DNA of 64,000 nucleotides from Fusobacterium perfoetens ATCC 29250 (GTDB taxonomy: Bacteria; Fusobacteriota; Fusobacteriia; Fusobacteriales; Fusobacteriaceae): positions 124,001 to 188,000 of the forward strand of contig NZ_JHXW01000004.1 in NCBI RefSeq assembly GCF_000622245.1, written 5' to 3'. Below are positions 7,901 through 30,077 of this stretch, piece by piece (within the stretch, counting starts at the first letter, position 1; every line of letters starts with the position of its first letter). Made by a program: the position numbers and the translations under genes. The notes beneath the pieces are model-generated. The model saw nothing but the letters and a program-made list of their open reading frames with translations. It was not told the DNA's origin and did not search any database.

Positions 7901-7930
7901 TTATTTTATACAAAAATATAGAAAGGAAAA

Positions 7931-9451: not shown

Positions 9452-9460
9452 TAAAATAAA

Positions 9461-9486
9461 GAGGGTGTTGTATAACAACATCCTCT
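9461..9486 (+). terminator. Intrinsic terminator after gpmI
   Basis: GAGGGTGTTG pairs with CAACATCCTC (one G-U pair) and is followed by a T tract. It may also stop the convergent LysR-type gene. Confidence 0.85.
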
Positions 9487-9501
9487 ATTTTTTTAAATTT
9501 T

Positions 9502-10386: not shown

Positions 10387-10539
10387 ACATTCTCCCATAA
10401 AAATTTAGTGATATAAAAATTTTTTAAAAAGCTTATAAAAATTCAATATTTCATTTTTTTATAAATTTATATTAAAATATTTGTAATAAAACATGATACT
10501 GTATACATAATTATATCATATTTTTTTTAAGGAGACAAT
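10387..10539. promoter_or_regulatory. Divergent control region of the LysR gene and the M20-YfcC operon
   Basis: 153 AT-rich bases between divergent starts. They hold the palindrome TGTATACA at 10500-10507, overlapping a possible plus-strand promoter (TTGTAA, 17 bases, TACATA). The LysR operator could not be singled out. Confidence 0.5.
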
Positions 10540-11706: not shown

Positions 11707-11732
11707 ATTTTTTAAAGTTTAAGGAGGAAATT

Positions 11733-14601: not shown

Positions 14602-15180
14602 TTATTTAAGAAAATCTATATCTTCCAACTCTTTTTTATCTTCTACCATAAATGAAAAAACTTCTTCCATATGTTTTTTTATGATTTGTTTTCCCCCTTT
14701 ATCTCCTTTTATATTTTTTAATTCTTCTATATATTCAGGAGAAAATATACATGGATTCCCTAAATCTTTTCCATCAAATAAACATCCTATTTTTTTACTT
14801 TGTTTAAAAAAATTTTTTATAAATTTTTCTAAAGTTTCTACTTTTAAGTAAGGCTGGTCACAAACCATAAACATCAAAAAATTTTTATTATTAATTTCAT
14901 TTAGTCCTAATATAATAGATGAGGAAATCCCCATTTCACTATGGGGATTTTCTTTATATTTTATATTATTTATTTTTGTAGTTTTTAAATATTCTTCTAT
15001 CTCTTTATATTTTGAAACTACTATTATATTTTCTATACTTTCTTTAAATATTTTTTTTAATGAAAAAATATTTTCTAATGTATATTCAAACATATATTTA
15101 TTATTCAATTTATAAAGTAATTTATTACTTCCAAATCTTTTACTATTTCCAGCAGCAAGTAAAATAATATCTAATTTCAT
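14602..15180 (-). CDS. mocA: MocA-like molybdenum cofactor cytidylyltransferase
   Basis: A 192-residue nucleotidyltransferase of the MobA/MocA fold. LLAAGNSKRFGSNKL near the N-terminus is the nucleotide-binding loop, and MVCDQPYL near residue 90 is the metal-binding motif. MocA enzymes join CMP to molybdopterin, making the dinucleotide cofactor used by xanthine-dehydrogenase-type enzymes. Its start overlaps the stop codon of the molybdenum subunit gene by one base, so it is the last gene of the hydroxylase operon. This suggests the enzyme uses the cytidine form of the cofactor. Confidence 0.82.
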   Translation of the reverse strand: MKLDIILLAAGNSKRFGSNKLLYKLNNKYMFEYTLENIFSLKKIFKESIENIIVVSKYKEIEEYLKTTKINNIKYKENPHSEMGISSSIILGLNEINNKNFLMFMVCDQPYLKVETLEKFIKNFFKQSKKIGCLFDGKDLGNPCIFSPEYIEELKNIKGDKGGKQIIKKHMEEVFSFMVEDKKELEDIDFLK

Positions 15181-17459
15181 TATTTTTTCTCTAACATTCC
15201 CATAAATACTTTTTCTGGTGTTATAGGAAGTTCTCTTATTCTAACTCCTACAGCATTATATACAGCATTTGCTATAGCTGGAGATGAAGTATTTATAACA
15301 ACTTCTCCTATTGATTTTACTCCAAAAGGTCCAGTTGGTTCATAACTACTTTCAAATTGAACTTCTATTGTTCCAACATCTTTTCTAGTAGGGATTTTAT
15401 ATTGCATAAATGAATGAGTTTGTAAACTTCCTTTATTAGTATAAACTACATCTTCATATAAAGCCATTCCAATTCCTTGAGCTATTCCACCTTCTGTTTG
15501 TACTCTAGCTAATGCTGGATTTACTACTGTTCCACAGTCAACAACAGCTTTATAATTAATAACATCTACTTTTCCAGTTTCTGTATCTACTTCTACTTCT
15601 GCTATTCCTACCATATATGGTGGTGGAGATACTTTAGAAGAATGAGATTCACTAGCATAAAGAGTATTATTGTTGTTACACATAGCCTTATTTGCTATAT
15701 CTTTTAATGAAATTTCTTTATTATCTTCTAAATCAAAAACTTTCTTTCCATCAAAATCAACTTTTTCTACATCTACATTTAAATATTGTGCACCTAAAGT
15801 TTTGATTTTAGTTATTAATTTTTCACAAGTTTTTACTACAGCCATACCTGTTAAGTATGTTGTACTTGAAGCATAAGAACCTGAATCATATGGAGAAGTA
15901 TCTGTATCAACACCATGTACTATTATATTATCAACACTACAATCTAAGCATTCTGCAGCTATTTGTGATAGTACTGTGTCACAACCTGTTCCCATATCTG
16001 TAGCTCCTACCATTAAATTGTAGAATCCATCATCACTTACTTTTATTGCTACAGAACCTACATCTACATTAGAAATTGAAGAACCTTGCATAGAAAATCC
16101 TAATCCAACTCCTCTAACTTTACCATTTCCCATATCTCTACGAGGATATTTATTATCCCAGTCTATCATAGCCTTAGCTCTCTCTAAACATCTATCTAAA
16201 GCACAACTATTAGCTGTTTCTCTATAATAAGCTGGCATTAAATCTCCTTCTCTAACCATATTTTTTTCTCTTAAAGTTATTGGATTTATTCCTAACTTTT
16301 CTGCTAATTCATCTATTATTGATTCCATAGCAAATATTCCTTGAGTAGCTCCATAACCTCTATAAGCTCCAGCTGACATAGTATTTGTATATACTACATC
16401 ATATCTAAATCTATAAGATTTAGCCTTACTATATAAAGGTATTGCTTTATGTCCACTTAATCCAACTGTTGTTGGTCCATGTTCTCCATAAGCTCCTGTA
16501 TTTGATAAAGTATATAAATCAATAGCTTTTATTATTCCATCTTTAGTAGCTCCTATTTTTATTGTTACTTCCATTTCATGTCTTGGACTTGAAGCAGTTT
16601 GACTCTCTTCTCTTGTAAATATTAATTTAGAATTTCTACCTGTCATATAAGTAACAAAAGCTGGATAAACTTCCATTATAGCTGTTTGTTTAGCTCCAAA
16701 ACCTCCACCTATTCTAGGTTTTATTACTCTTACTTTAGATTTTGATATATCTAAAGCATTAGCTACTATTCTTCTTACATGGAAAGGAATTTGAGTAGAA
16801 GAAACTACATTTAATCTACCAAACATATCCATAGTTGCATAAGCTCTAAAAGTTTCCATTGGAGTTTGTTGATTAGCTTTTGTATGATATGTATTTTGAA
16901 GAACAACATCACATTCTTCAAAAACTTTATCTATATTTTCATCGCCATCATTAGCATGAGCACATAAATTTCTTTTATTGTCAGCTCCAACAGGACATAA
17001 TGCTTTCCAGTTATCTTCTGGATGTATTAATATTTTATTATCTTTTGCTTTTCTAAAATCTAATATAGCTTCTAAAACTTGATACTTAACTTTTATAAGT
17101 TTCATAGCCTTTTCTACTACTTTTTCATTTTCTCCAGCTACTATAGCTACTACATCTCCAACGTATCTTACTCTTTGGTCTAGTATAAGTCTATCATATG
17201 GACTTGGTTCAGGATAAGTTTGTCCTGCCATTGTAAATCTTTTATTTGGTACATCTTTATAAGTAAATATACTATGAATTCCAGGAACTTTTTTTGCTAT
17301 ATCTGTATTAATTTCTTCAATTAAAGCATGAGCATGAGGACTTCTTAATAATTTTATTACAAGACAATCTTTTGGTGCTATATCGTCAGTATATACAGGT
17401 TTTCCTGTAACTAATGCCATAGCATCTTTTTTCATAATAGATGTATTTACTATTTTCAT
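15180..17459 (-). CDS. Molybdenum hydroxylase large (Moco) subunit, xanthine dehydrogenase type
   Basis: A 759-residue subunit with the aldehyde oxidase/xanthine dehydrogenase a/b hammerhead followed by the molybdopterin-binding domain. Visible motifs include RIGGGFGAKQT, AYRGYGATQ and the C-terminal GVKSIGE, whose glutamate is the catalytic base of the family. It works with the FeS and FAD subunits encoded just upstream. The purine permease gene nearby favours xanthine, hypoxanthine or a related purine as substrate. Residues that would prove the exact substrate cannot be judged here. The gene overlaps the FeS-subunit gene by one base. Confidence 0.92.
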   Translation of the reverse strand: MKIVNTSIMKKDAMALVTGKPVYTDDIAPKDCLVIKLLRSPHAHALIEEINTDIAKKVPGIHSIFTYKDVPNKRFTMAGQTYPEPSPYDRLILDQRVRYVGDVVAIVAGENEKVVEKAMKLIKVKYQVLEAILDFRKAKDNKILIHPEDNWKALCPVGADNKRNLCAHANDGDENIDKVFEECDVVLQNTYHTKANQQTPMETFRAYATMDMFGRLNVVSSTQIPFHVRRIVANALDISKSKVRVIKPRIGGGFGAKQTAIMEVYPAFVTYMTGRNSKLIFTREESQTASSPRHEMEVTIKIGATKDGIIKAIDLYTLSNTGAYGEHGPTTVGLSGHKAIPLYSKAKSYRFRYDVVYTNTMSAGAYRGYGATQGIFAMESIIDELAEKLGINPITLREKNMVREGDLMPAYYRETANSCALDRCLERAKAMIDWDNKYPRRDMGNGKVRGVGLGFSMQGSSISNVDVGSVAIKVSDDGFYNLMVGATDMGTGCDTVLSQIAAECLDCSVDNIIVHGVDTDTSPYDSGSYASSTTYLTGMAVVKTCEKLITKIKTLGAQYLNVDVEKVDFDGKKVFDLEDNKEISLKDIANKAMCNNNNTLYASESHSSKVSPPPYMVGIAEVEVDTETGKVDVINYKAVVDCGTVVNPALARVQTEGGIAQGIGMALYEDVVYTNKGSLQTHSFMQYKIPTRKDVGTIEVQFESSYEPTGPFGVKSIGEVVINTSSPAIANAVYNAVGVRIRELPITPEKVFMGMLEKK

Positions 17460-17923
17460 TATCTCTCTCCTCCTCTTTTATAATTTAAAAATGCTTTTAC
17501 TGCTCTAAATTGTCCCATATAACCAGTACATCTACATAAATTTCCTACTAAGTATTCTTTTATATCTTCATCAGAAAATTCTTTTAATTCTCTTACCATT
17601 GCTAGAACATTCATTATAAACCCAGGATTACAATATCCACATTGGTCTGCTCCTTCTTTGGCCATAAATTCTCCAAATTCTTTAGCTTCTTCTTGTAATC
17701 CTTCTAGAGTTGTTATATGTTTTCCGTTAGCTCTAGCAGCTAATACTGTACAAGATAAAACAGGTTTTTCATCTATCCAAAGAGTACATAATCCACAATT
17801 AGAAGTTTCACATCCTCTTTTTACACTTAAACATCCCTTACTTCTTACGTATTCTAATAGTGGTGTATCTGGTTCTATATTATCTTCTGTTAATTTTCCA
17901 TTAATCCATAATTTTATTTCCAT
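17459..17923 (-). CDS. Molybdenum hydroxylase 2Fe-2S subunit
   Basis: A 154-residue small subunit with two [2Fe-2S] domains. The plant-ferredoxin-like domain has CETSNCGLC plus a later cysteine (VLSC). The C-terminal helical domain has CGYCNPGF and LCRCTGY. It passes electrons from the molybdenum site to FAD. It lies between the FAD and molybdenum subunits, one base from each, so the three are surely co-translated. Confidence 0.95.
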   Translation of the reverse strand: MEIKLWINGKLTEDNIEPDTPLLEYVRSKGCLSVKRGCETSNCGLCTLWIDEKPVLSCTVLAARANGKHITTLEGLQEEAKEFGEFMAKEGADQCGYCNPGFIMNVLAMVRELKEFSDEDIKEYLVGNLCRCTGYMGQFRAVKAFLNYKRGGER

Positions 17924-17924
17924 T

Positions 17925-18716
17925 TTATTTTTCCTCCATTAATTTTTTTAAAGTTCTTTTTACAAAAACTTCTGTTAATCTTTTACGATACTCTCCACTA
18001 GCTCTCATATTTGAATCAAATTTTAAATTTTCACTAACATATTTTGCAAACTTTTCTATATTTTCTTCAGAAAATTCTCCTAAAATATTTTCATTATCTT
18101 CTACTACTTTTGCTTTATAAGGTCTTGCTCCTATAACAGCATAGACTTTTTTATTTTCAGTAATTGTTACTCCACAAGTTATTACAGGAAAATTTGTAGC
18201 TTGATTTCTAAAAGCAGAATATCCTACTTTTCTTCCATCTTTTTTTATTATAATTCTTACTAATATATCTTTATCATAAGGCATATTTACAAAATCTTTT
18301 AAAGGAATTATTCCTCCCTTATACATTTCTACATAAGTATCTAAAGTAAGAAGAGAAGTTAAAATGTCTGAAAATCCAAATCTACTATAAATACTTCCAC
18401 CTATTGTTACACAATTTCTAAATTGTACTCCTACTATATCTTTTAAACTATTTTTTAAAGCATTGTTTGTATATTCATTTAAAGAAACATTTTTTTCTAT
18501 ATCTCTAAGAGTTACCATACATCCTATAGTATATTTTTCTTCATCTTCCTCTATTTTATCTAATCCTAATTTTGATAAATCTATTGCTTTAACTATATTT
18601 CTATTTTGTAGCTTTAACCATCCTGTTCCACCAAGTATTACATTATTTACATTTTGATTTAATTTATATGCCTCTTCTAGTGATTCAACAGATACATATT
18701 CTTTTATTGTTAACAT
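17925..18716 (-). CDS. Molybdenum hydroxylase FAD-binding subunit
   Basis: A 263-residue medium subunit with the FAD-binding domain of the CO dehydrogenase/xanthine dehydrogenase family: the NVILGGTGWL loop near residue 29 and VQFRNCVTIGGS near residue 96, followed by the C-terminal domain. It hands electrons to NAD or a ferredoxin. It is the first gene of the FAD-FeS-Mo-mocA operon. The leader carries the folded RNA element at 18759-18842. Confidence 0.92.
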   Translation of the reverse strand: MLTIKEYVSVESLEEAYKLNQNVNNVILGGTGWLKLQNRNIVKAIDLSKLGLDKIEEDEEKYTIGCMVTLRDIEKNVSLNEYTNNALKNSLKDIVGVQFRNCVTIGGSIYSRFGFSDILTSLLTLDTYVEMYKGGIIPLKDFVNMPYDKDILVRIIIKKDGRKVGYSAFRNQATNFPVITCGVTITENKKVYAVIGARPYKAKVVEDNENILGEFSEENIEKFAKYVSENLKFDSNMRASGEYRKRLTEVFVKRTLKKLMEEK

Positions 18717-18756
18717 TTACCCACCACCTTTACTTTTATTTTAAATTTTTCCAAGA

Positions 18757-18842
18757 AAAAAGAGTTGATTTCTCCTAATTATCTAGTAATTAGAAAACAA
18801 TTAATACTTTATCACAAAATTAATTGTTTTACTCAACTCTTT
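18757..18842 (-). ncRNA. Three-way-junction RNA element ending in a U tract, before the hydroxylase operon
   Basis: On the minus strand a 10-bp stem (AAAGAGTTGA at 18842-18833 with TCAACTCTTT at 18768-18759) encloses two hairpins. One is a 12-bp stem (AAAACAATTAAT/ATTAATTGTTTT, 13-base loop); the other is a 7-bp stem (CTAATTA/TAATTAG). GAGAAA joins the second hairpin to the closing stem, and the closing stem is followed by U residues. It may be a branched terminator of the permease gene, or a riboswitch-like leader of the hydroxylase operon. It does not match the purine riboswitch consensus. Confidence 0.6.
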
Positions 18843-18900
18843 CACCTCTGTAATATATATTTGTATTTATTTTATCATTATTTCAACTACTTTGTAAAGA

Positions 18901-20208
18901 TTATTTTTCTTTCTTTTTCTCTGGTAATATTAAATTTAATGTAGTTGCTATAACAAATGTCATAATAATTCCATTTTGTGCAAATATTTGTCCAACCCAT
19001 TTTGGTAAATGTGCTAATACATCTGGTAAGTTTCCAATTCCTACTCCAAGTCCTAAAGAAATAGCAATTATTAATCCTTTTCTATCATCTATTTCATCTC
19101 TTAATAAAGATTTTAATCCACTAACAAATATCATAGCAAACATTACAACAGCTGCTCCTCCTAAAACAGATTGAGGCATTACTGTAAATATAGCACTTAA
19201 TTTTGGTATAAATCCCATAAGAACTAAAACTATAGCTCCAGTTCCTATAACAAATCTATTAACAACCTTAGTTACTGCTACTAATCCAACATTTTGACTA
19301 AATGTTGTATTTGGCAATACTCCAAAGAAAGCAGCAATTAAACTTCCAAATCCATCAGCAATAACTCCACCAGATAATTCTTCATCTGTTGGTTCTCTGT
19401 CTAATCCTCCATTAGCTATTCCTGATAAATCCCCTACTGTTTCTACAGCTGTAGCCACATACATTATTAGCATAGCTATTATAGCATTTATATTAAATTC
19501 TATTCCTACTGGCATTACTTTTGGTAAGCTAAACCAAGCAGCCTCTTTTACAGCAGTAAAATCTACCATTCCCATTACTATTGCTAATATATATCCAATT
19601 ACAATACTTATCAATATAGCAGAAGCACTTATAAATTTCTGTTTACATTGATTTAAAATAATTATCATTATAACAACAACTGTTCCTACTATTATATGTT
19701 TTGGGTCTCCAAACTCTGGAGTAAATCCTCCACCAAAGTATCTAATACCAACTGGTAATAATGATAATCCTATTGATATTACAACAAGACTTGTTACAAT
19801 TGGCGGAAATAATTTTTTTAATGGTTTTATAAAATATCCTAGTACCATTTCAAATAAAGCTCCAATAACTGAGGCTCCCATTATAGCTCCATACCCATAT
19901 GTTACTCCAATTGCTTTTGCTGTACCTAAAAATCCTGAACTTGTTCCCATAACTCCTGGTAATCCACTACCTATTTTCATAATAGGATAAATTTGAATAA
20001 GAGTTGTAATTCCAGCAATAAACATAGAATTTTGAATAAGAGCTGTTTTTAAGTTCAAATCCATTTGTAACATTCCACAAACTATAATAAGTGGAGAAAT
20101 ATTACCTAAAAACATAGCTAATAAATGTTGAATACCTAAAGGTAAGGCTGTTTTCAAAGGAACTTTTCCTTCTAATTGATAGATGTTTTCATTACTTACT
20201 TGTGACAT
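18901..20208 (-). CDS. Xanthine/uracil permease (NCS2 family)
   Basis: A 435-residue inner-membrane nucleobase:cation symporter with about 14 hydrophobic segments. The N-terminal PLGIQHLLAMFLGN, the internal TTFSQNVG and the late GNLPD stretches are family features. It should bring in xanthine or uric acid for the hydroxylase encoded downstream on the same strand. ATG with AAGGAG upstream. The stop codon is followed by the three-way-junction element. Confidence 0.92.
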   Translation of the reverse strand: MSQVSNENIYQLEGKVPLKTALPLGIQHLLAMFLGNISPLIIVCGMLQMDLNLKTALIQNSMFIAGITTLIQIYPIMKIGSGLPGVMGTSSGFLGTAKAIGVTYGYGAIMGASVIGALFEMVLGYFIKPLKKLFPPIVTSLVVISIGLSLLPVGIRYFGGGFTPEFGDPKHIIVGTVVVIMIIILNQCKQKFISASAILISIVIGYILAIVMGMVDFTAVKEAAWFSLPKVMPVGIEFNINAIIAMLIMYVATAVETVGDLSGIANGGLDREPTDEELSGGVIADGFGSLIAAFFGVLPNTTFSQNVGLVAVTKVVNRFVIGTGAIVLVLMGFIPKLSAIFTVMPQSVLGGAAVVMFAMIFVSGLKSLLRDEIDDRKGLIIAISLGLGVGIGNLPDVLAHLPKWVGQIFAQNGIIMTFVIATTLNLILPEKKKEK

Positions 20209-20286: not shown

Positions 20287-20321
20287 GAGATTTTTTAATT
20301 TTTCTAAAAATTTTTTAAAAT

Positions 20322-20352
20322 GAAAGAGGACTGGAAAACTCAGTCCTCTTTC
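20322..20352 (-). terminator. Intrinsic terminator of the diaminopropionate operon
   Basis: GAAAGAGGACTG pairs perfectly with CAGTCCTCTTTC around a 7-base loop, 28 bases after the ridA stop. U-rich sequence follows on the minus strand. It separates this operon from the purine permease. Confidence 0.88.
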
Positions 20353-20379
20353 GTTAATTATTATTCATTTCTTAGGGTA

Positions 20380-20757
20380 TTATTTTACAGCTATTAATTC
20401 TATTTCTACCTTTACATCTTTCGGTAATCTTGCTACTTCTACACAAGCTCTTGCTGGTTTTACTTCTCCTAAATATTCATTATACACTTCATTTATTGCT
20501 CCAAAGTCATCCATATTTTTTATGAAACATGTTGCTTTTACTACATCTTTAAATGTGTATCCTGCTTCATCTAATATTGCTTTTAAATTTTCTAATGATT
20601 GTCTTGTTTGAGCTTTTACATCATCTGATACCAATATCATTGTCTCTGGTACAAATGGTATTTGTCCTGATATATATAAAGTTTCATTTACCTCTACTGC
20701 TTGTGAATATGGTCCTAAAGCTGCTGGGGCTTTTGGTGTATTTATTATTCTTTTCAT
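20380..20757 (-). CDS. ridA: RidA-family 2-iminobutanoate/2-iminopropanoate deaminase
   Basis: A 125-residue trimeric YjgF/RidA protein. The essential arginine is Arg103 in PARACVEVARLP, and the N-terminal APAALGPYSQAV and YISGQIP are typical. RidA hydrolyses reactive enamines/imines such as 2-aminoacrylate made by PLP enzymes. In this operon the diaminopropionate ammonia-lyase is a direct source of 2-aminoacrylate, so RidA is probably its dedicated safeguard. It is the last gene before the terminator. Confidence 0.95.
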   Translation of the reverse strand: MKRIINTPKAPAALGPYSQAVEVNETLYISGQIPFVPETMILVSDDVKAQTRQSLENLKAILDEAGYTFKDVVKATCFIKNMDDFGAINEVYNEYLGEVKPARACVEVARLPKDVKVEIELIAVK

Positions 20758-20787
20758 CTTTTTCTCCTTAAACTATTTTAATAATAA

Positions 20788-21996
20788 CTAAATAAATTTA
20801 GTTTTTGTTTCACTTAAAGTTTCTGAACCATCTTTTGTTACTATTAAGTTTTGTTCATAGTTAACTGTTCCAAGTCCTGGTTGATATAATCCTTTTTCTA
20901 TAGCTATATACATATTTTCTTCTAATATCATATCTTCTTCATGAATGAACCAAGGACGTTCCCAAGTTAATCCAATTCCATGTCCCCAATGAGGAGGGAA
21001 AGCTGCATATAATGTATTTTCATCTGTTTGTTCTGAAGATAAACTTACTCCTCTTTCTTCTAAGTATCTATCTCCAGCTTCACATAATTCTCTTACAGAA
21101 ACTCCTGGTTTAACTAAACTCATAACATATTCACACGCATCTGTTACTATATCTATTGCTCTTTTTTGTTTTTCTGTAGGTTTTCCTCCAACCACAGTTG
21201 TTCTTCCAAAGTCACAAATATATCCTTCATAACATATAATAAAATCTACTTTAAATAATTCACCATCTTGTAATTTCCTATTACAATCATATCCAGGGAA
21301 ATCAACACTATGAACGGCATCACTATGAGGTCCTGAACTTGTTACAATAAAGTATAAAACTGCTCCTTCTGAATATACTTTAGCCATAGCTGGTCCTATA
21401 ACTTCTGCTTCAGTTTTTCCTGCTGCTACATTATTCATTATCATTTCTACTGCTTCTGTTCCAATTTCATTAGCTCTTCTAATAGATTCAATTTCCCTTG
21501 GTGATTTAACAAGTCTCATTTTAGAAAGAATATCGTCACATGGAACTAATTCTAATTCTGGCATTCTTTCTTTCATTTCTCTACCTATTTTCCAAGTAAG
21601 AGTATCTTCATACATAACTCCTACTTTTCCTATATCCATTTTTAATTCTTTAGCTGTATCTGCTACTAATTTAAAGAAATCTGTACTATATCTAATATCT
21701 TTAACAGCTACTAAATCTTTTCTATATTCTAATGTTGTTACTATAAGTACTGGTTCTCCCTCTTTAGGAATCATTAAAACACAATGAGATCTTCCTGTCC
21801 ATAAAGGTGGTTGATCTGGTAAATAACATCTTTGTTGATAATGATTAGCAAAATAATCTACTCCAGCAAATCTATCCCAAGTTCCTCCTCCTCTAGACCA
21901 AATCATTACCCCATTAAGTCCTTGTTTTACTACTTCTTCTCTACACTTTTCTCTTCTTCTCTCAAATTCTTCAAATGGAACATTTTTAGCAAACAT
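20788..21996 (-). CDS. M24-family metallopeptidase (Xaa-Pro peptidase/creatinase fold)
   Basis: A 402-residue protein with an N-terminal creatinase-type domain and a C-terminal pita-bread domain. The five metal ligands of M24 are visible: Asp in KVDFI, Asp in CDFGRT, His in HWGHGIGL, and two Glu in AIEKG and NYEQN. Members split Xaa-Pro dipeptides or related amidino/amide substrates. It lies between the small transporter subunit and ridA, with AGGAGG before the ATG. It probably supplies amino acids to the operon's catabolic enzymes; the true substrate is unknown. Confidence 0.88.
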   Translation of the reverse strand: MFAKNVPFEEFERRREKCREEVVKQGLNGVMIWSRGGGTWDRFAGVDYFANHYQQRCYLPDQPPLWTGRSHCVLMIPKEGEPVLIVTTLEYRKDLVAVKDIRYSTDFFKLVADTAKELKMDIGKVGVMYEDTLTWKIGREMKERMPELELVPCDDILSKMRLVKSPREIESIRRANEIGTEAVEMIMNNVAAGKTEAEVIGPAMAKVYSEGAVLYFIVTSSGPHSDAVHSVDFPGYDCNRKLQDGELFKVDFIICYEGYICDFGRTTVVGGKPTEKQKRAIDIVTDACEYVMSLVKPGVSVRELCEAGDRYLEERGVSLSSEQTDENTLYAAFPPHWGHGIGLTWERPWFIHEEDMILEENMYIAIEKGLYQPGLGTVNYEQNLIVTKDGSETLSETKTKFI

Positions 21997-22038
21997 ATTT
22001 CCTCCTATAATTTCTCTATATTATAATTTATAATATCA

Positions 22039-22146
22039 TTATTGTTCTTCTTTCATTTTTTGATAAACTCTATGAAGACCCCAAGCAAAACCACCAAAAT
22101 TTAACATTGCACAAACAATCATACATAAAATAGTACTAACTGGCAT
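22039..22146 (-). CDS. MetS-like small subunit of an NSS amino acid importer
   Basis: A 35-residue peptide read by hand: MPVSTILCMIVCAML, then NFGGFAWGLHRVYQ and a charged end KMKEEQ. It has one transmembrane helix followed by a charged tail, the pattern of the small methionine/alanine importer subunit (MetS) found beside NSS transporters. GGAGGAG stands 6 bases before the ATG, and the gene starts 20 bases after the stop of the NSS transporter. Coding is supported by the ribosome site, position and composition. Confidence 0.85.
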   Translation of the reverse strand: MPVSTILCMIVCAMLNFGGFAWGLHRVYQKMKEEQ

Positions 22147-22166
22147 TTTAATCTCCTCCTCTTTTA

Positions 22167-23678
22167 TTAATCTTGATGTTCTTCTGGAATTTCCGGATAT
22201 CCTTCTATTACTGTATTCATATAATTATTTTCAGCACTTTCCCCTAATTTTTTATTAAATAATAATGTTATTATTATTAATAATCCAACTTGTAATATAA
22301 CTGTTCCAAAACTATCAACTACAAATGGATTCCACCAATCATTTGGTCTAGCTTTCATAGCTCCAATTGCTGACCATACAAATAATATAATTATAGCTAC
22401 TGGTGCTAGGAATCTAACTGATATATTCCACCATTTACCTATATATAATTCATTTTCTGGAATATTAATATATGAACGAGTTTTTTCTACTCCAAATTTC
22501 CATATTGCAAGACATGTAAATAAAGACCCTACTAATAAAGCCATTCCCCATACCCAATCTTGATTATTTACAAAATCTATGTCATAAGCTGAAAAGATTC
22601 CAATAGCAAATACTACAAAGAATATTATTGTTGTAGCTTTTTTTCTTGACATTTTCATATCCATTAAAGGAACAACTCCTGTATTAAAGAATATTACATT
22701 TGCTGTCATAGCTGCAAAGAATAATGATAAGAAGAATAAACATCCTAATATACGTCCACCAACCATTCCTCCAAATAATTGAGTTAAAGAAATAAATGTT
22801 AACCCATAGTTACCTGATCTACAAATCTCTTCTGCTACCTCAGGACTAGGAGCTAAAGCAAATAAAGCTGGTAATACAACAAACCCTGCTAATAATGCTG
22901 CTGAGTTATCTCCAACTCCTTGAAGGAATTCATTTAAAGCAACATCTGATTTAGCCTTAGTATAAACTCCCATTGTTATTACTAATCCAAATCCAGGTCC
23001 TACAGACCATGCTGATTGAGATAAAGCTTGTAACCAAGTATTAGAATCAAAGAAAGTATCTGGTGATATAGCAAATAAATATTTTAATCCCTCAACAGAA
23101 CCTGGTAAAGTTAAAGCTCTTACTAACATTATCAATAAAACTATATATAATGCTGGAGTTAGCCATTTTCCTATTAATTCTATTCCTTTACTTATTTTTT
23201 GAGCAACAATTACTGCTGTTAAAAGAAGTAATCCTACAAATATTCCTACATTTATCCATCCATTTGAAACATTATCAAATAATTGAACTAATTCTTGTGT
23301 TGTTTTTCCTTCAAATCCTTTTAATGAAATAAATGCATATCTTAAACACCAACCCATAACAACTGTATAATATCCAGTTATAGCAACAGTAGTAGCTGCC
23401 ATAAAAGCTCCCATCCAAGCATATTTTTTACCTATAAAATCTTTAAATGCTCCTGGTGCTCCGTGTCTTGTTAATCTTCCCATTACCATTTCTGCTGTAA
23501 TAATAGGTATAGATATTGAAAATAATATTATTGTCCAAGCTAAAACAAATGAACCTCCTCCATTTAATGCAGCCATTCTTGGAAATCTCCATACATTTCC
23601 TGTTCCAACTGATGCTCCTATTAAAGTAAGGATTAATCCCCATCTTGATGAGAATACCTCTTGACTCTTATCTGACAT
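22167..23678 (-). CDS. Sodium:neurotransmitter symporter (NSS) family amino acid transporter
   Basis: A 503-residue membrane protein with 12 helices. SRWGLILTLIGASVGTGNVWRFP (only the core GNVWRFP matters) in helix 1 is the sodium/substrate site of the LeuT fold. The long C-terminus and the small partner gene resemble the MetP/MetS importer. In this operon it probably imports the amino acid or diamino acid handled by DpaL and YgeY. AAGGGG precedes the ATG, 26 bases after ygeY. Confidence 0.92.
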   Translation of the reverse strand: MSDKSQEVFSSRWGLILTLIGASVGTGNVWRFPRMAALNGGGSFVLAWTIILFSISIPIITAEMVMGRLTRHGAPGAFKDFIGKKYAWMGAFMAATTVAITGYYTVVMGWCLRYAFISLKGFEGKTTQELVQLFDNVSNGWINVGIFVGLLLLTAVIVAQKISKGIELIGKWLTPALYIVLLIMLVRALTLPGSVEGLKYLFAISPDTFFDSNTWLQALSQSAWSVGPGFGLVITMGVYTKAKSDVALNEFLQGVGDNSAALLAGFVVLPALFALAPSPEVAEEICRSGNYGLTFISLTQLFGGMVGGRILGCLFFLSLFFAAMTANVIFFNTGVVPLMDMKMSRKKATTIIFFVVFAIGIFSAYDIDFVNNQDWVWGMALLVGSLFTCLAIWKFGVEKTRSYINIPENELYIGKWWNISVRFLAPVAIIILFVWSAIGAMKARPNDWWNPFVVDSFGTVILQVGLLIIITLLFNKKLGESAENNYMNTVIEGYPEIPEEHQD

Positions 23679-23704
23679 AATTCCAACCCCTTTCTTTATT
23701 TTTA

Positions 23705-24886
23705 TTATTTTAAATATGCTTTTAATATTGCATAATATCCTTCAATTCCTTTATAAGCTTGTTCTAATTCTATGTACTCATCTATTGTATGAGCTAAACT
23801 TTCTTTAGAAGGTCCATATCCAATAGTTTTTATTCCTAACTCCCCAGCATAATGAGAAGCATTTGTACAGAAATACCAACAACTTACAGGTGGCTCTTGT
23901 CCTATTTCTTTTAAAGCAGTTTTTGCTTTTTGAATATATTCTTCTTTTTCATCATAAATCCATCCAGGGAAAAATCTTTTACAAACTATATCATTTCCTG
24001 TCCAACATTTATCTTTTCCATCAGAATAACTTACTCTTGCTTTAAATTCATTATCTTCTTTAGTTAATTTATCTATAATATCTTGTATAGGTTTTAAAAC
24101 ATCTTCCATTGTTTCCCCTACAAGTAATCTTCTATCATAAGTAGCCATACAATAATCTGGTACAACTGATGCTCCAGGATATGGAGATGATTTTATATCT
24201 GTTAACTCCAGTACTCCATCTCCTAAGATTTTATGATGTGAAAATGGAATTTTTCTTATTTCTTCTATTAACTTCATCATTTTATAAACTGAATTTATTC
24301 CTTCTTGTGGATTTGAAGAGTGAGCTAGTTTTCCAAATGTTTCTACTACTATTTCTCCTCTTCCTTTTTGTCCTACTTTTAAATGAAGTTGTGAAGGTTC
24401 TCCTATAATAACATAATCTGGTTTAGCATATTTACTAATACTTCTTGCTGCAACTCCTTCGAAACATTCTTCATGTACAGAACCAGCAACAAATAATTCC
24501 CCAGCAAATTCTTTATTTAAATCTTTAGCTAAATATCCTCCTGCTAATGCCATTAGACATAAAGCACTTTTCATATCTGTGCTTCCTCTCCCATAAAGTT
24601 TTCCATCTGAAACTTCTCCTCCAAATGGTTCTTTAGTCCATTGACTTTCATTTACAGGAACTGTATCCATATGTCCTTCACATAAAATTCTTGGTCCTTC
24701 ATATTTCCCTTTTACTGAAGCTATTACATTTCCATATTCATCTACATGAACTTTATCATATCCTAGTTCTAAAAATAATTTTTCTAAATATTTAGCAAAT
24801 TCTCCTTCTTCTCCAGAATAACTTTTTATTTGAATAGCTTTTTGTAATACTTTTACTACTTCTTCTTTTCTTTCTTCTGTTAGCAT
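23705..24886 (-). CDS. ygeY: YgeY-type M20 metallohydrolase
   Basis: A 393-residue M20 peptidase family enzyme. The ATG at 24886 was chosen because GGAGG lies 7 bases upstream and the choice avoids overlap with dpaL; a longer frame reaching 24928 lacks a site. The motif GHMDTVPVN, with the metal histidine and aspartate, and HEECFEG, with the catalytic glutamate, are visible. YgeY usually sits beside ygeX (diaminopropionate ammonia-lyase), as here, and is often labelled a selenium-metabolism hydrolase, though its substrate is not established. It could release diaminopropionate from a conjugate. Confidence 0.9.
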   Translation of the reverse strand: MLTEERKEEVVKVLQKAIQIKSYSGEEGEFAKYLEKLFLELGYDKVHVDEYGNVIASVKGKYEGPRILCEGHMDTVPVNESQWTKEPFGGEVSDGKLYGRGSTDMKSALCLMALAGGYLAKDLNKEFAGELFVAGSVHEECFEGVAARSISKYAKPDYVIIGEPSQLHLKVGQKGRGEIVVETFGKLAHSSNPQEGINSVYKMMKLIEEIRKIPFSHHKILGDGVLELTDIKSSPYPGASVVPDYCMATYDRRLLVGETMEDVLKPIQDIIDKLTKEDNEFKARVSYSDGKDKCWTGNDIVCKRFFPGWIYDEKEEYIQKAKTALKEIGQEPPVSCWYFCTNASHYAGELGIKTIGYGPSKESLAHTIDEYIELEQAYKGIEGYYAILKAYLK

Positions 24887-24905
24887 TTCTTTGCCTCCGA
24901 AAATA

Positions 24906-26126
24906 TTATTTATTATTATAAGCTCCATCCCAAACTACTTTTCTGTATCCTTCTACATCTGTATCTCCTTCTGTACTGATACAAAGTATTCTTGAATTTT
25001 CATCTATTTTTAATGCTTCCATTAATTCTTTATATTCTTCTTTTCTTTCTGATAAAATTGTAAATAGTCCTAATCCTACTGCTCCTGATTCTCCTGATAT
25101 TACTCTTTGGTCATCTTTTAATGGACTTGATAATACTCTCATTCCTCTTGCTGCTACTTGGTCATCACATGAAACTGAAAAATCAGCATTATCTCTTAAA
25201 ATTTTCCAACTTATTGTATTTGGTTCCCCACAAGCTAATCCTGCCATTATTGTTGTTAAATCTCCACCTACATTATGAGGATTTCCATCATTTGCTTCCA
25301 TTGATTTATAAATACAGTTTGCTCCGTGTGGTTCACAAATTATTGTAATTGGTCTATCATCTCCATATAAATGAGCTAAGTATCCTTGAACTGCTCCTGC
25401 AAAAGAACCTACACCTGCTTGTAAAAATACATGAGTTGGTTTTTCTTCTCCAGCTTCTTTTAATTGTTCTATTACTTCATTTATTATTGTTGAATATCCT
25501 TGCATTATCCATAATGGTATTTCTTCATATCCATCCCAAGCTGTATCTTGTACCATTATCCAACCATAATCTTCTGCCCCTTTATTAGCTAATCTTACGG
25601 CATCATCATAATTTAAATCTGTAATAGTTACATCTGCCCCCTCTCTAGCTATTGCATCAAATCTCATTTTTGCTGAACCTTTTGGCATATAAACTACTGA
25701 TTTTTGTTTTAATCTATTTGCCATCCAAGCTACTCCTCTTCCATGGTTACCATCAGTAGCTGTTATAAATGTTACATCTCCTAACTCTTTTTTTATTTCA
25801 TCTGATATTAATACATTATAAGGAAGTTCATTTATATCTTTTCCTAATCTTTTACTTAAGTATTTTCCTATTGCATAAGAACCACCTAAAACTTTAAAAG
25901 CGTTTAATCCAAATCTTTTAGACTCATCTTTTAACCAAACTTTTTTTACTCCATAGTGCTCTGCTAAATTTTTTAAATCTACTAGTGGAGTTGGTTTGTA
26001 GTTTGGTAAACTTTTATGAAATTCATATACATCATGTATACTTTTATTATCAAATCCTATTAACTCAGATTTTTCATAATTTTCATCTCTACTTTTAGTA
26101 TTATGAACCCATTTTATTAATTCCAT
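24906..26126 (-). CDS. dpaL: Diaminopropionate ammonia-lyase
   Basis: A 406-residue PLP enzyme (YgeX) that turns 2,3-diaminopropionate into pyruvate and two ammonia molecules. The PLP lysine is Lys78 in NAFKVLGGSYA, TATDGNHGRG is the cofactor-holding loop, and the glycine-rich QAGVGSFAGAV binds phosphate. It is first in the six-gene operon. A sigma-54 promoter lies about 45 bases upstream and AGGAGG precedes the ATG. Confidence 0.95.
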   Translation of the reverse strand: MELIKWVHNTKSRDENYEKSELIGFDNKSIHDVYEFHKSLPNYKPTPLVDLKNLAEHYGVKKVWLKDESKRFGLNAFKVLGGSYAIGKYLSKRLGKDINELPYNVLISDEIKKELGDVTFITATDGNHGRGVAWMANRLKQKSVVYMPKGSAKMRFDAIAREGADVTITDLNYDDAVRLANKGAEDYGWIMVQDTAWDGYEEIPLWIMQGYSTIINEVIEQLKEAGEEKPTHVFLQAGVGSFAGAVQGYLAHLYGDDRPITIICEPHGANCIYKSMEANDGNPHNVGGDLTTIMAGLACGEPNTISWKILRDNADFSVSCDDQVAARGMRVLSSPLKDDQRVISGESGAVGLGLFTILSERKEEYKELMEALKIDENSRILCISTEGDTDVEGYRKVVWDGAYNNK

Positions 26127-26170
26127 TTTTTCCTCCTAAATTTCATTTAAAATTAATTGATTTATTAAAA

Positions 26171-26188
26171 GCATTTTCCATGCCAAAA
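26171..26188 (-). promoter_or_regulatory. Sigma-54 (-24/-12) promoter of the dpaL operon
   Basis: On the minus strand TTTTGGCATGGAAAATGC has GG and GC separated by exactly 10 bases, the hallmark of sigma-54 promoters (consensus TGGCACG-N4-TTGC). It lies 45-62 bases before the dpaL start, and a sigma-54 activator gene is adjacent. Confidence 0.82.
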
Positions 26189-26270
26189 CTTAAATTTTAT
26201 TTTTTGTATTAAAATAGTTTTTTTCTTTCTAAAATAAATTATTTTTCTTTTTAATATATTTATGTTCTTA

Positions 26271-26303
26271 TCTCATTTTGATAATTTTTATATCATTTTG
26301 ATA
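26271..26303. promoter_or_regulatory. Paired enhancer-binding sites (TATCA-TTT-TGATA)
   Basis: TCTCATTTTGATA (26271-26283) and TATCATTTTGATA (26291-26303) are two copies of one inverted repeat, 20 bases (two helical turns) apart, about 100 bases upstream of the sigma-54 promoter. They are probable binding sites of the activator encoded at 26456. Confidence 0.72.
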
Positions 26304-26368
26304 AAATATTTACTTTGCTTATTTTTAAAGTTTTTTTTATTACTAAAAAATATTTTATCGTTTTCTCA

Positions 26369-26381
26369 TATCATTTTGATA
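26369..26381. promoter_or_regulatory. Third TATCA-TTT-TGATA site, next to the regulator's promoter
   Basis: An exact copy of TATCATTTTGATA 32 bases before a TATAAT box (26413-26418) that could serve the activator gene, which suggests autoregulation. The rest of the 329-base gap between the divergent genes shows only AT-rich sequence. Confidence 0.65.
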
Positions 26382-26455
26382 AAAATATATATTTTTTTAT
26401 AATTTAATGTGCTATAATACAATCAAATATTTTTTTTCAGAAAAAAGGAGCTAAA

Positions 26456-28165
26456 ATGAAACTTTTAGAAAATATAAAAAATGATATAGAGCTTTATGCT
26501 GATGCCATATCTCAATTAATTGGTATTGATGTTGAAATTATGGGAAAAAATTTTAAAAGATTAGTTGGAACAGGGCTTCTTAAAGACAAAGTTGGACAAA
26601 ATATGTATCAAGACTCTCATGTTTATAGAAGTGTTCTTTATTCTGGAGAACTTTGTATTATCATAAATCCAAGAGAAGAAGAAATTTGTAAAACATGTCC
26701 ATCAAGAGAAATATGTAAAGAAACATTAGAAATATCTACTCCTATTTTTTTTAATGAAGATATTGTTGGAGTTATTGGTTTAATTTGTTTTGACCAAAAG
26801 CAAAAAGAAAATTTTTTACTAAAAAAAGATTTATATATTAATTTTATAAAACAAATTTCTCTTTCCATTACTTCTAGATTACATCAAGAAAATGAAAAAA
26901 TTATAGCTAAAAATAATAATGAGTTACTTCTTAATATTATAGATAGAATTCCTGACTCTATTATTATTACAAATGAAGATAAAAAAATAGAAATGATAAA
27001 TAAGAGTGGCCTTACTCTTCTAAAAAATATAAATTCTAATTCAAAAATAAAAATAAATAATGAAACTAAAATGTCTGATAAAAAAGAATTTTCTTTAGAA
27101 TATAACAATACTACTCATGATGTAATTGGAGATATTATCGAAATAAATAATAGTACAGATAATTCTAAAACTCTTTATATATTTCAAGAGTCTGATAAAT
27201 TTAGAACTTACCTTCAACAAATAAATACTAATCTTTCTAAAAATTTTATTTTCTCTTCACCAGAAATGAGTTTAATATATTCTAAAATTTATAAAGTAGC
27301 TAAAACTACTTCTACTGTATTTATTACAGGAGAAAGTGGTACTGGAAAAGAAGTAGTTGCTAGATTGATTCATTCTAACAGTGATAGAAAAGACAAACCT
27401 TTCATTGCAGTAAATTGTGGAGCCATTCCAGATTCTTTAATTGAAAGTGAATTTTTCGGATATGTTAAAGGAGCTTTTACAGGAGCTAATCCAAATGGAA
27501 AAATTGGTTTTTTTGAACAGGCTAATGAGGGAACTATATTTTTGGATGAAATTGGAGATATGCCTCTTTCTCTTCAAGTTAAACTTTTAAGAGTTTTACA
27601 AGAAAAAGTTATTTGTCCTATTGGTTCAAATAATTCTAAAAAAATAGATATTAGAGTTATTGCTGCTACTAATAGAGAGCCTGAAGAATTAGTTAAAGAA
27701 AATAAATTTAGAGAAGATTTATATTATAGATTAAATGTTTTTCCTATAGATATTCCTCCTTTAAGAAATAGAAAAAAAGATATTGAAGATTTAGCTAAAT
27801 ATTTTATAAGAAAATATTCTAAGCTTTTTAATAGAAGTAATATTAAAATTTCTGATGAAGTTATGGAATTTTTTCAATCTTATAGTTGGCCAGGAAATAT
27901 TAGAGAGTTAAAAAATGTTACAGAATATATAGTCAATGTTATAGAGGAAAAAGATAATGAAATTCTCTTAAAACATCTTCCAAATAAACTTTTTAAATCT
28001 TCAAATATTATTGAAGATAAAACTTTAGCAGAAATTGAAAAGGAAACTATTCAAAATCTCTTAATTAAATATGGTTCTTCTTCTAAAGATAAAGAAAAAA
28101 TATCTGAAATACTTGATATTGGAATTGCCACTTTATATAGAAAAATAAAATTGTATAATTTATAA
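26456..28165 (+). CDS. Sigma-54-dependent transcriptional activator (YgeV/PrdR-like)
   Basis: A 569-residue regulator. Residues 1-140 form a sensor domain with cysteines at 78, 81 and 87 (CKTCPSREIC), which might bind a metal or sense redox. Residues 155-245 are PAS-like. The AAA+ domain has the Walker A GESGTGKE at 292-299 and the sigma-54-contacting GAFTGA at 339-344. A Fis-type helix-turn-helix ends the protein. It is divergent from the dpaL operon, which has a sigma-54 promoter and repeated palindromes, so it almost certainly activates that operon. The effector is unknown, perhaps diaminopropionate or another amino acid. Confidence 0.93.
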   Translation: MKLLENIKNDIELYADAISQLIGIDVEIMGKNFKRLVGTGLLKDKVGQNMYQDSHVYRSVLYSGELCIIINPREEEICKTCPSREICKETLEISTPIFFNEDIVGVIGLICFDQKQKENFLLKKDLYINFIKQISLSITSRLHQENEKIIAKNNNELLLNIIDRIPDSIIITNEDKKIEMINKSGLTLLKNINSNSKIKINNETKMSDKKEFSLEYNNTTHDVIGDIIEINNSTDNSKTLYIFQESDKFRTYLQQINTNLSKNFIFSSPEMSLIYSKIYKVAKTTSTVFITGESGTGKEVVARLIHSNSDRKDKPFIAVNCGAIPDSLIESEFFGYVKGAFTGANPNGKIGFFEQANEGTIFLDEIGDMPLSLQVKLLRVLQEKVICPIGSNNSKKIDIRVIAATNREPEELVKENKFREDLYYRLNVFPIDIPPLRNRKKDIEDLAKYFIRKYSKLFNRSNIKISDEVMEFFQSYSWPGNIRELKNVTEYIVNVIEEKDNEILLKHLPNKLFKSSNIIEDKTLAEIEKETIQNLLIKYGSSSKDKEKISEILDIGIATLYRKIKLYNL

Positions 28166-28201: not shown

Positions 28202-28672
28202 CTAAAACTTAAAATCTCCACTTTTTCCACCAGATTTATTTAAAAGATGGATATCTGAAATACTCATTCTTTTATCTACACTTTTACACATATCATAAAT
28301 TGTAAGGGCGGCTACATTTACTCCTGTTAGAGCTTCCATTTCCACACCTGTTTCTCCAACTGTTTTAGCTGTAGAATAAATATGAATTTCACACTCTTCT
28401 TCTTTTATTTCAAATTTTATTTCACATCCACTTATAAAAATTGGATGACACATTGGAATTATTTCACTAGTTTTTTTCATTCCCATTATTCCAGCTACTC
28501 TTGCTACTCCTAAAACCTCTCCTTTTTTCATCTGATTATTAATAAGTTTTGAAATAATTTCTTTTGAAACTTTTACTTTTCCAAAAGCTGTAGCCTCTCT
28601 TTTAGTTTTATTTTTTTCACTTACATCTACCATATAAGCTTTCCCATCTTTATTAAAATGTGTAAAATCCAT
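28202..28672 (-). CDS. moaC: Cyclic pyranopterin monophosphate synthase
   Basis: A 156-residue enzyme that, with MoaA, converts GTP to cyclic pyranopterin monophosphate, the first step of molybdopterin synthesis. [14 protein letters not shown] at the N-terminus, the CHPIF segment and [10 protein letters not shown] near residue 112 are family features. GGAGG precedes the ATG, 9 bases after the MOSC gene. Last gene of the mog-DedA-moaA-MOSC-moaC transcript. Confidence 0.95.
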
Positions 28673-28681
28673 TTTTTCCTC

Positions 28682-29128
28682 CTAAATTATTTCAACAATA
28701 TCTCCCTCTTTTATAATTCCACCTGAAATAACTTTTGCAAATATTCCCTCTCTTGGCATTATACAATCACCAACTTTTTTAAATATTTCACAATGAGAAT
28801 GACATTCTTTTCCTATTTGAGTAACTTCTAAAACTATATCATTTATTTTTAATTTTGTTCCAATAGGAATGTTAACTAAATTTAAACCAGAAACAATAAG
28901 ATTTTCTCCAAAAGAACCATCTATTACTTCTCCACCTCTTTTTTTGAAATCTTCGATTTTTTCATAAGAAAGTAAGCTTATTTGTCTATGCCAATTTCCT
29001 CCATGTGCATCATTCTTTAATCCAAATCCCTCTACTATTTCACATTCATGAATATTTTTTTTATCAGTTCCCTTTTTTTCACTGATACAGACAGCCTTAA
29101 TTTTCCCTTTTAAACCTTTCATTGACAT
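28682..29128 (-). CDS. MOSC-domain protein
   Basis: A 148-residue protein with the MOSC beta-barrel: GNWHRQISLLSYE, GSFGENLIVSGL and the conserved cysteine region CHSHCEIF. MOSC proteins are thought to move sulfur for pterin-molybdenum enzymes. The start at 29128 is taken because AGGTGG lies 5 bases upstream; the in-frame GTG at 29137 is part of that site. It follows the moaA stop by one base, so translation is coupled. Confidence 0.88.
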   Translation of the reverse strand: MSMKGLKGKIKAVCISEKKGTDKKNIHECEIVEGFGLKNDAHGGNWHRQISLLSYEKIEDFKKRGGEVIDGSFGENLIVSGLNLVNIPIGTKLKINDIVLEVTQIGKECHSHCEIFKKVGDCIMPREGIFAKVISGGIIKEGDIVEII

Positions 29129-29129
29129 T

Positions 29130-30077
29130 TTATCCACCTATCTCATTCATATTTTTTCTTTCTTCATCAATATTTTCTTTTCCAAAAAGATGTTTTTCAG
29201 GTTTTTTATTTATTTCAATCTTTAAAATATTTTCTATCTCTTCATCAGATTTTAAATAATCTTTTATATTAATATTACTTTTCATATTTAAACATCTTTT
29301 TATTTCACCAGTAGAAGTTATTCTTATTTTATTGCAATTTTCACAAAAACAGTTATTAATAGGACTAATAAATCCTATTTTTCCTTTACCATCTACCAAT
29401 TTATAATATTCACTAACACCTTTTATTTGAAAAAAATCCTTTTGAAATCCATATATCTCTTCTAAATTTTTATAGATTTCTTTATTATTTATTCCTTTAT
29501 ATTTCTTTCCTTCTCCCATAGGCATTAGTTCAATAAACCTTACATCTATATTATATTTTTTAGTTATTTCTCCTAAATCAATTATAGAATTTTCATTTAT
29601 GCCTTTCATTATTACAGAATTTATTTTTATTTCAAATCCCATACCCTTAGCTTTTAATAATCCAGATATTACTTTATCTAAATTTCCACCTCTTGTTATT
29701 TTTTTAAACAACTCTTTTTCTAAAGTATCAAGACTTATATTTATTCCCTTTAAACCAGCCTTTTTTAAGTCCTCTAATTTTTCTTCCAATAAAATTCCAT
29801 TAGTAGTAATATATATTTCATCTATTCCTAAAAATTTTATTTCTTTTACTATTTCAATTAAATCTTTTCTAAGTAAAGGCTCTCCACCTGTTAATCTAAT
29901 TTTATTTATTCCAAGTTTTATAGCATTTTTTACAATTTTTAATATTTCTTCTAGAGAAAGTTCTTCTTCTTCTATATGTTCTGTTTTTTCTGGCAAACAG
30001 TAAATACATTTTAAATTACAATTTTTTGTTAAAGATATTCTTAAATAGTTTATTTCTCTTCCTGAATTATCTTTCAT
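29130..30077 (-). CDS. moaA: GTP 3',8-cyclase
   Basis: A 315-residue radical SAM enzyme. Cys20, Cys24 and Cys27 in CNLKCIYC bind the SAM cluster. The C-terminal CFCENC plus a later cysteine (KRCLN) bind the second cluster that holds GTP. TGGEPLLR is the SAM-binding motif. The family's C-terminal GG dipeptide is present (EIGG). It overlaps the DedA gene by 11 bases. Confidence 0.96.
   Translation of the reverse strand: MKDNSGREINYLRISLTKNCNLKCIYCLPEKTEHIEEEELSLEEILKIVKNAIKLGINKIRLTGGEPLLRKDLIEIVKEIKFLGIDEIYITTNGILLEEKLEDLKKAGLKGINISLDTLEKELFKKITRGGNLDKVISGLLKAKGMGFEIKINSVIMKGINENSIIDLGEITKKYNIDVRFIELMPMGEGKKYKGINNKEIYKNLEEIYGFQKDFFQIKGVSEYYKLVDGKGKIGFISPINNCFCENCNKIRITSTGEIKRCLNMKSNINIKDYLKSDEEIENILKIEINKKPEKHLFGKENIDEERKNMNEIGG

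Follow-up and report, generated by a model that had tools for sequence, protein, structure and literature searches.

A six-gene dpaL operon of Fusobacterium perfoetens with a predicted sigma-54 promoter and a probable role in the catabolism of N-substituted 2,3-diaminopropionate

In the 64,000-nucleotide stretch of the Fusobacterium perfoetens ATCC 29250 genome analysed here (the window), a group of six genes is predicted, with a probability of roughly 0.6, to form a catabolic unit for N-substituted 2,3-diaminopropionate (DAP), which would be controlled by sigma-54 and its activator (EBP) and in which the compound would be imported and deblocked stepwise. Now that biochemical work has assigned YgeY, UacY and YgeX (DpaL) to the reductive urate pathway (PMC12507026), the most fitting view of the operon is as a modified relative of the closing part of this pathway, in which YgeY converts 3-ureido-2-aminopropionate (albizziin) to DAP and YgeX then yields pyruvate (PMC12507026). 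The features of the region are as follows.

26456..28165, plus strand: sigma-54 activator (EBP), 569 aa, divergent from dpaL (PF00158, 238.7 bits)
26368..26382: inverted repeat 1, ATATCATTTTGATAA on the plus strand, overlapping the -35 element of the EBP gene's own sigma-70-like promoter
26290..26304: inverted repeat 2, ATATCATTTTGATAA on the plus strand, a likely upstream activating site (predicted)
26270..26284: inverted repeat 3, ATCTCATTTTGATAA on the plus strand, 20 bp from repeat 2
26170..26185, minus strand: sigma-54 -24/-12 promoter TGGCATGGAAAATGCT, GG-N10-GC, 59 bp before dpaL
24906..26126, minus strand: dpaL (ygeX), 2,3-diaminopropionate ammonia-lyase, 406 aa (TIGR03528, 641.7 bits, cut-off 532.25)
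23705..24886, minus strand: ygeY, M20 hydrolase, 393 aa (PRK13004, 457 bits, cut-off 321)
22167..23678, minus strand: NSS (SNF) family Na+-dependent transporter, 503 aa (PF00209, 189.8 bits; NF037979, 98 bits)
22039..22146, minus strand: ORF of 35 aa containing a single hydrophobic stretch, with a strong ribosome-binding site, MetS-like by position
20788..21996, minus strand: M24 (creatinase/prolidase fold) hydrolase, 402 aa (PF00557, 134.3 bits)
20380..20757, minus strand: ridA, enamine/imine deaminase, 125 aa (TIGR00004, 179.3 bits, cut-off 106.25)
20319..20355, minus strand: terminator hairpin 3′ of ridA (folding z = -5.3)

The six genes follow one another on the same strand in the order dpaL, ygeY, NSS, 35-aa ORF, M24 and ridA, as an earlier sequence-only reading of this DNA had described, with gaps of 19–42 bp and a purine-rich ribosome-binding site before each gene. 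The strong terminator claimed after ridA is likewise borne out by the hairpin, which has a similar counterpart in a sister species (L114). A search for the same gene order in other genomes, which that reading had proposed, found it in this sister species and in no other of 61 Fusobacteriaceae. Between the two species, dN/dS is at most 0.12 in all five operon genes tested, with values of 0.02 for M24 and 0.06 for the NSS gene that denote strong purifying selection.

Sigma-54 control of the operon, also put forward previously, is well supported. The -24/-12 element before dpaL matches the Clostridioides difficile SigL consensus, TGGCA-N6-[AT]TGCT[AT] (PMC7438776), and no other site in the 64 kb matches TGGCAYNNNNNWTGCW perfectly; a looser form of the promoter pattern occurs in about 0.2% of shuffled intergenic regions. 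Such an element is present in 12 of the 12 dpaL upstream regions examined, including the present one, and is expected in no more than 0.5% of shuffles of each. The genome encodes rpoN (PF04552, 143 bits, with the ARRTVAKYRE box), on whose presence the proposal depended. The strongest evidence is provided by the divergent EBP gene and the three inverted repeats, both overlooked in the sequence-only reading. The EBP carries the GAFTGA motif, Walker A and B motifs and a C-terminal HTH; its best NCBIfam match is PrdR (374.6 bits, under the PrdR cut-off), and its homologues, mostly 52–63% identical, are also divergent from dpaL in other Fusobacteriaceae.

Triple repeats with similar geometry were found in 8 of the 11 regions that have a divergent EBP gene. 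The three repeats are conserved operator-like sites, predicted to be bound by the EBP; such a conserved operator geometry would predict co-regulation. Only the triple arrangement is informative, since TTATCANNNTGATAA, with one mismatch allowed, is no commoner genome-wide than its reversed control (53 versus 52 sites), which makes single sites uninformative; nor was the repeat pattern enriched within the window at two mismatches. Because repeat 1 overlaps the sigma-70-like promoter of the EBP gene (26376–26403, 11 of 12 matches), autoregulation of the EBP is suggested.

Sets of dpaL and ygeY with a hydrolase and a transporter gene recur away from ssnA, since six other Fusobacteriaceae that lack ssnA have the EBP gene and dpaL-ygeY-SSS-uacY, and Bacillales have loci in the order EBP-ridA-dpaL-ygeY-uacY-SSS. 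The present operon is a variant of this recurrent module of EBP, dpaL-ygeY, uacY and a Na+ symporter, which is kin to the final reductive urate steps. It shares the EBP, dpaL and ygeY with the stand-alone operons of Fusobacteriaceae, Bacillales and Proteus (the last with an MFS carrier), ridA additionally with those of Bacillales, and the promoter and repeat geometry with those of Fusobacteriaceae. In contrast to them, uacY and the SSS symporter gene are missing from the operon in this species and its sister, and M24 and the NSS gene with the MetS-like ORF occupy their place; a same-genus relative (L118) has the order dpaL-M20-NSS-small ORF-M24. RidA is not unusual beside dpaL, as ridA-dpaL-ygeY recurs in Bacillales. 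For Clostridiales, an earlier proposal had already put dpaL and a ridA-like gene (tdcF) under sigma-54, in the DioR/SigL regulon (PMC6615313, PMC7438776). That regulon also has a sigma-54 promoter and an EBP but, unlike the single ssnA-free operon described here, takes in urate and selenium-linked genes. The last steps of anaerobic urate breakdown, a pathway described only recently, appear here as a portable sigma-54-controlled module, which bacteria may refit with other transporters and deblocking enzymes.

In the proposed route, the NSS carrier and its small partner would import an N-substituted DAP with Na+, and M24 and an altered YgeY would each take one blocking group off the two nitrogens of DAP, with M24 filling the role held by UacY in related operons. 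DpaL would then convert DAP to 2-aminoacrylate and ammonia, and RidA would hasten hydrolysis to pyruvate of the 2-aminoacrylate, which otherwise harms other PLP enzymes. The presumed part of the EBP is to detect the substrate, attach to the inverted repeats and open the -24/-12 promoter. The unit resembles the UacY/YgeY/YgeX tail of urate degradation (PMC12507026) in its DpaL, its YgeY and its predicted products, pyruvate and ammonia, and differs from it in lacking SsnA and a UacY orthologue, in possessing M24, NSS and the small ORF, and in its altered YgeY; it would be re-equipped for a substrate other than urate-derived ureides. Of the complete uptake, release and breakdown route suggested before, the core from DAP to pyruvate with RidA as detoxifier is well supported by the DpaL, YgeY and RidA families, and the whole route is plausible. 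If so, the operon points to yet-unrecognised diaminopropionate derivatives as fusobacterial food.

The alteration of YgeY consists of departures at 14 positions that are invariant in 17 other YgeY proteins, which themselves depart at 0–5 positions; DpaL shows no departures from otherwise invariant positions. Thirteen of the 14 are common to the sister species, some of the changes lie near the active site, and the YgeY branch is long (0.35). The protein scores under the cut-off of TIGR03526 (246 versus 321.5 bits), a model that urate-cluster YgeY proteins fail too, and it is identified as a YgeY hydrolase by PRK13004 and the M20 metal ligands. The divergence could reflect faster drift, and the dN/dS of 0.04 between the two species argues against present relaxation. 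A species pair with M24, NSS and an altered YgeY offers a natural experiment on shifts in YgeY specificity.

The sequence-only reading took the M24 protein for a peptidase. In a route close to that view, a dipeptidase would free DAP from peptides, the NSS carrier would import free DAP, and YgeY would act on albizziin as in urate degraders; this appears rather unlikely. The best solved relatives of the protein are indeed Xaa-Pro dipeptidases (E about 1e-29), and alignments show that the five metal ligands (D, D, H, E, E) are retained; however, the motif GHGIGLTWERP lacks the prolidase-signature histidine of GHxxGxxxH[DE] seen in typical M24 peptidases, and the peptidase label is therefore doubtful. 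The M24B prolidase signature (PS00491) is absent here, whereas 6 of the 10 M24 loci used for comparison show it. Also against a peptide substrate, M24 relatives at about 30% identity adjoin amidase and ABC importer genes, YgeY is altered as described above, and NSS carriers are not known to import peptides. It may tentatively be proposed instead that M24 is not a peptidase but has a new hydrolytic activity, stripping a group from, or opening a ring of, an N-substituted DAP, and that with the re-specialised YgeY it provides a catabolic route for a compound new as a bacterial nutrient. M24 may nevertheless fail to substitute for UacY, its role being assigned from gene position and one lost residue. 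It is improbable that the operon simply serves the use of free DAP as a nutrient, with only a marginal part for the hydrolases: DpaL would require no deblocking of imported DAP, and RidA and an amino-acid carrier would fit, but hydrolase genes stand beside dpaL in every variant examined in the genus, and purifying selection on both YgeY and M24 is strong.

It is highly improbable that the operon forms the final part of a purine or urate route fed by the adjoining genes. Genes for an NCS2 permease (18901–20208) and XDH subunits (15180–18716) come next in the same orientation, and the sister species has them too. The closest DpaL comes from a species with a urate cluster (G002), and identity to the DpaL of a Fusobacterium mortiferum urate cluster is 85%. 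However, the genome contains no ssnA (best match 27 bits versus a cut-off of 455.5), a gene whose product scores above cut-off in 24 of 61 Fusobacteriaceae, and no uacY orthologue, the only relative being a 38%-identical paralogue in a D-serine cluster. Moreover, the strong hairpin stands between the operon and the NCS2/XDH unit, and the XDH fits the XdhA/XdhB type better than selenium-linked models. Since ssnA is absent, urate is not a likely source for the operon, and the urate route was rejected as its role; given the adjacent XDH and NCS2 genes, a link to purines is possible.

Returning to the N-substituted DAP reading, the M24 hydrolase has an orthologue among the 61 Fusobacteriaceae in the sister species only, and none came up at E ≤ 1e-60 in 391 genomes of the class Clostridia, scanned without a positive control. 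No source was found in viral contigs, and plasmid matches were only 26–32% identical. The operon points to an uncharacterised M24 subfamily. In ectoine catabolism, DoeA and DoeB likewise pair an M24 hydrolase with an M20 enzyme that deblocks a diamino-acid derivative, but the M24 protein of this operon falls far under the DoeA cut-offs (68.7 versus 575 and 50.3 versus 613 bits).

NSS carriers mostly move free amino acids, and the imported compound could therefore be DAP or albizziin itself. The 35-aa ORF, previously called a MetS-like subunit, matches no MetS model, PF16951 included, and membership of that family was dropped; the label derives from its place after the NSS gene and from the equivalent ORF in L118, which matches PF16951 weakly (E = 0.0026, below cut-off). 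A search of the MetPS literature found nothing relevant. The 35-aa protein is 100% identical in the sister species.

The six-gene operon for 2,3-diaminopropionate (DAP) proposed in the sequence-only reading was borne out in its layout: the genes run in one direction with gaps of 19–42 bp, each is preceded by a ribosome-binding site, ygeY starts with ATG at 24886, and the assignments of DpaL, YgeY, NSS, M24 and RidA are backed by family scans. The strong terminator expected after ridA was also recovered, a similar hairpin being retained in the sister species (G005), and a terminator scan found no minus-strand terminator-like sites inside the operon. The features are:

26126 to 20380, minus strand: six-gene operon, dpaL, ygeY, NSS transporter, 35-codon ORF, M24-family hydrolase and ridA (gene reading)
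20319-20355, minus strand: terminator hairpin closing the operon (folding z = -5.3)
26185-26170, minus strand: sigma-54 promoter element TGGCATGGAAAATGCT, matching the C. difficile SigL consensus
26456-28165, divergent from dpaL: sigma-54 activator (EBP) with GAFTGA (family scan and motif)

The hairpin sets the adjoining NCS2 and XDH genes apart from the operon. Together with a gene for a MocA-like protein, those for the three XDH subunits and the PbuX-like NCS2 permease lie downstream on the same strand (14602-20208) and are also retained in G005; molybdenum cofactor genes (MoaA, MoaC, MOSC) are found on the opposite side of the operon at 28202-30077.

The SigL consensus, derived experimentally in C. 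difficile, is TGGCA-N6-[AT]TGCT[AT] (PMC7438776). The only perfect match to TGGCAYNNNNNWTGCW within the window is the 26185-26170 element, and the same element occurs 53-64 bp before dpaL in this locus and 11 related loci, with a chance of at most 0.5% per dpaL upstream region; this supports the predicted sigma-54 promoter, and rpoN, on which that prediction depended, is present in the genome. The EBP gene had not been noticed in the earlier reading. In Clostridiales, an EBP named DioR has already been proposed to control dpaL and a ridA-like gene through sigma-54 (PMC6615313; PMC7438776). Three inverted repeats, one located ~70-80 bp from a pair spaced 19-20 bp, lie between the EBP gene and dpaL; where the EBP is divergent, 8 of the 11 intergenic regions show this triple arrangement, and the remaining three retain one or two sites at the same threshold. 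A lone repeat is no rarity genome-wide, so the evidence lies in the arrangement and its conservation. In a relative (G016, L121, 9100-9350), a GC-rich stretch resembling an insertion separates the repeats from the promoter. The rpoN gene itself (L001) adjoins a further EBP gene (44% identity between its product and the operon activator over the matched part), and in G026 (L113) an rpoN-like gene and an EBP gene are directly divergent from a dpaL-ygeY-SSS-uacY operon.

YgeY hydrolyses albizziin (3-ureido-2-aminopropionate) to DAP, from which YgeX/DpaL yields pyruvate, the 2-ureido group being taken off before the YgeY step by UacY (PF07969) or YgeW (PMC12507026, urate work of 2025), although a commentary calls the order of ureido cleavage unsettled (PMC12990295). 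In Salmonella, diaminopropionate ammonia-lyase is among the enzymes releasing 2-aminoacrylate (PMC9127364), which fits the presence of ridA in the operon. Urate as the operon's role was rejected because the genome has no ssnA: this urate-pathway marker, above cut-off in 24 of 61 Fusobacteriaceae, is absent here and from the dpaL-bearing relatives G004, G005, G006, G013, G016, G023, G027 and G036. Six of these relatives carry an EBP with dpaL-ygeY-SSS symporter-uacY, and the orders are EBP-ridA-dpaL-ygeY-uacY-SSS in Bacillales and EBP, dpaL-ygeY-uacY-MFS in Proteus; a transporter-hydrolase-DAP-lyase module thus recurs on its own, ssnA absence having been scored in the Fusobacteriaceae genomes and the Bacillales and Proteus cases being known from dpaL loci alone. 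The order in F. mortiferum is dpaL-ygeY-uacY-EBP-ssnA-NCS2-ygfK. In a urate-cluster species of the same genus (G002, L135), the dpaL coding sequence (9342-10561) falls into two frames, and close by a second EBP gene likewise seems disrupted. Contig L005, labelled Mailhella sp., has a dpaL 88% identical to the operon's, a Fusobacteriaceae-type EBP and ygeY, and is probably mis-binned.

In this genome and G005, whose operon proteins are 96-100% identical, the operon has neither uacY nor SSS, and their place is taken by NSS, the 35-aa ORF and M24. The best reading is import, two-step N-deblocking, elimination and clean-up under EBP control: NSS and its partner would import a putative N-substituted DAP, M24 and YgeY would strip two N-substituents, DpaL would then carry out the elimination and RidA the clean-up, with the EBP switching the operon on when substrate is present. 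A route for free DAP is possible, as is one for peptides, on which the M24 enzyme bears. Its five metal ligands are all kept across seven homologues; it has GHGIGLTWERP and is without the prolidase-signature histidine, as is the genus's second M24 type, the signature being seen in 6 of 10 comparison M24 loci. Its scores against the named M24 equivalogs all lie far under their cut-offs, and full-length relatives on alphaproteobacterial plasmids adjoin an amidase and branched-chain ABC importers. Judged from sequence, the enzyme more probably hydrolyses a small molecule than cleaves peptides.

YgeY departs here from 14 positions (E70, S107, S149, H168, V171, K174, L187, S191, V225, S288, D292, C302, W337 and A343, full-protein numbering) that are invariant in 17 others drawn from urate and stand-alone operons; the other YgeYs show 0 to 5 departures and DpaL here none. 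Several lie near, in sequence, the positions assigned as M20 metal ligands (H72, D104, E140, E163) and as the dimer-domain histidine H189, and 13 of the 14 are common to G005. Between the two genomes, dN/dS is 0.04 for YgeY, 0.02 for M24, 0.06 for NSS and 0.12 for RidA (dpaL, cut by a contig end in G005, is left out), and the 35-aa ORF differs by a single silent change. The pattern suggests an earlier shift in YgeY specificity that selection now maintains, rather than decay.

An M24 orthologue was found in 2 of 61 Fusobacteriaceae, this genome and G005 only. In the same-genus G006, dpaL is accompanied by another M20, NSS, a small ORF and a distinct M24 (28% identical), while a second dpaL operon in G005 has this second M24 type, M20 and ridA, indicating that M24-type enzymes and NSS joined dpaL more than once, or were exchanged, within the genus. 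Two G005 contigs (L114 and L115) end within near-identical dpaL copies, which suggests that this genome has two dpaL operons and that they broke the assembly. A uacY paralogue (38% identity) lies elsewhere in the F. perfoetens genome within a D-serine ammonia-lyase cluster (L179, G000 C24:453000-472000, 7234-12976), where genes for D-serine ammonia-lyase, a GntP-family permease, the UacY-like Amidohydro_3 protein and an M20 amidohydrolase sit next to one another in what looks like an N-acyl-D-serine unit.
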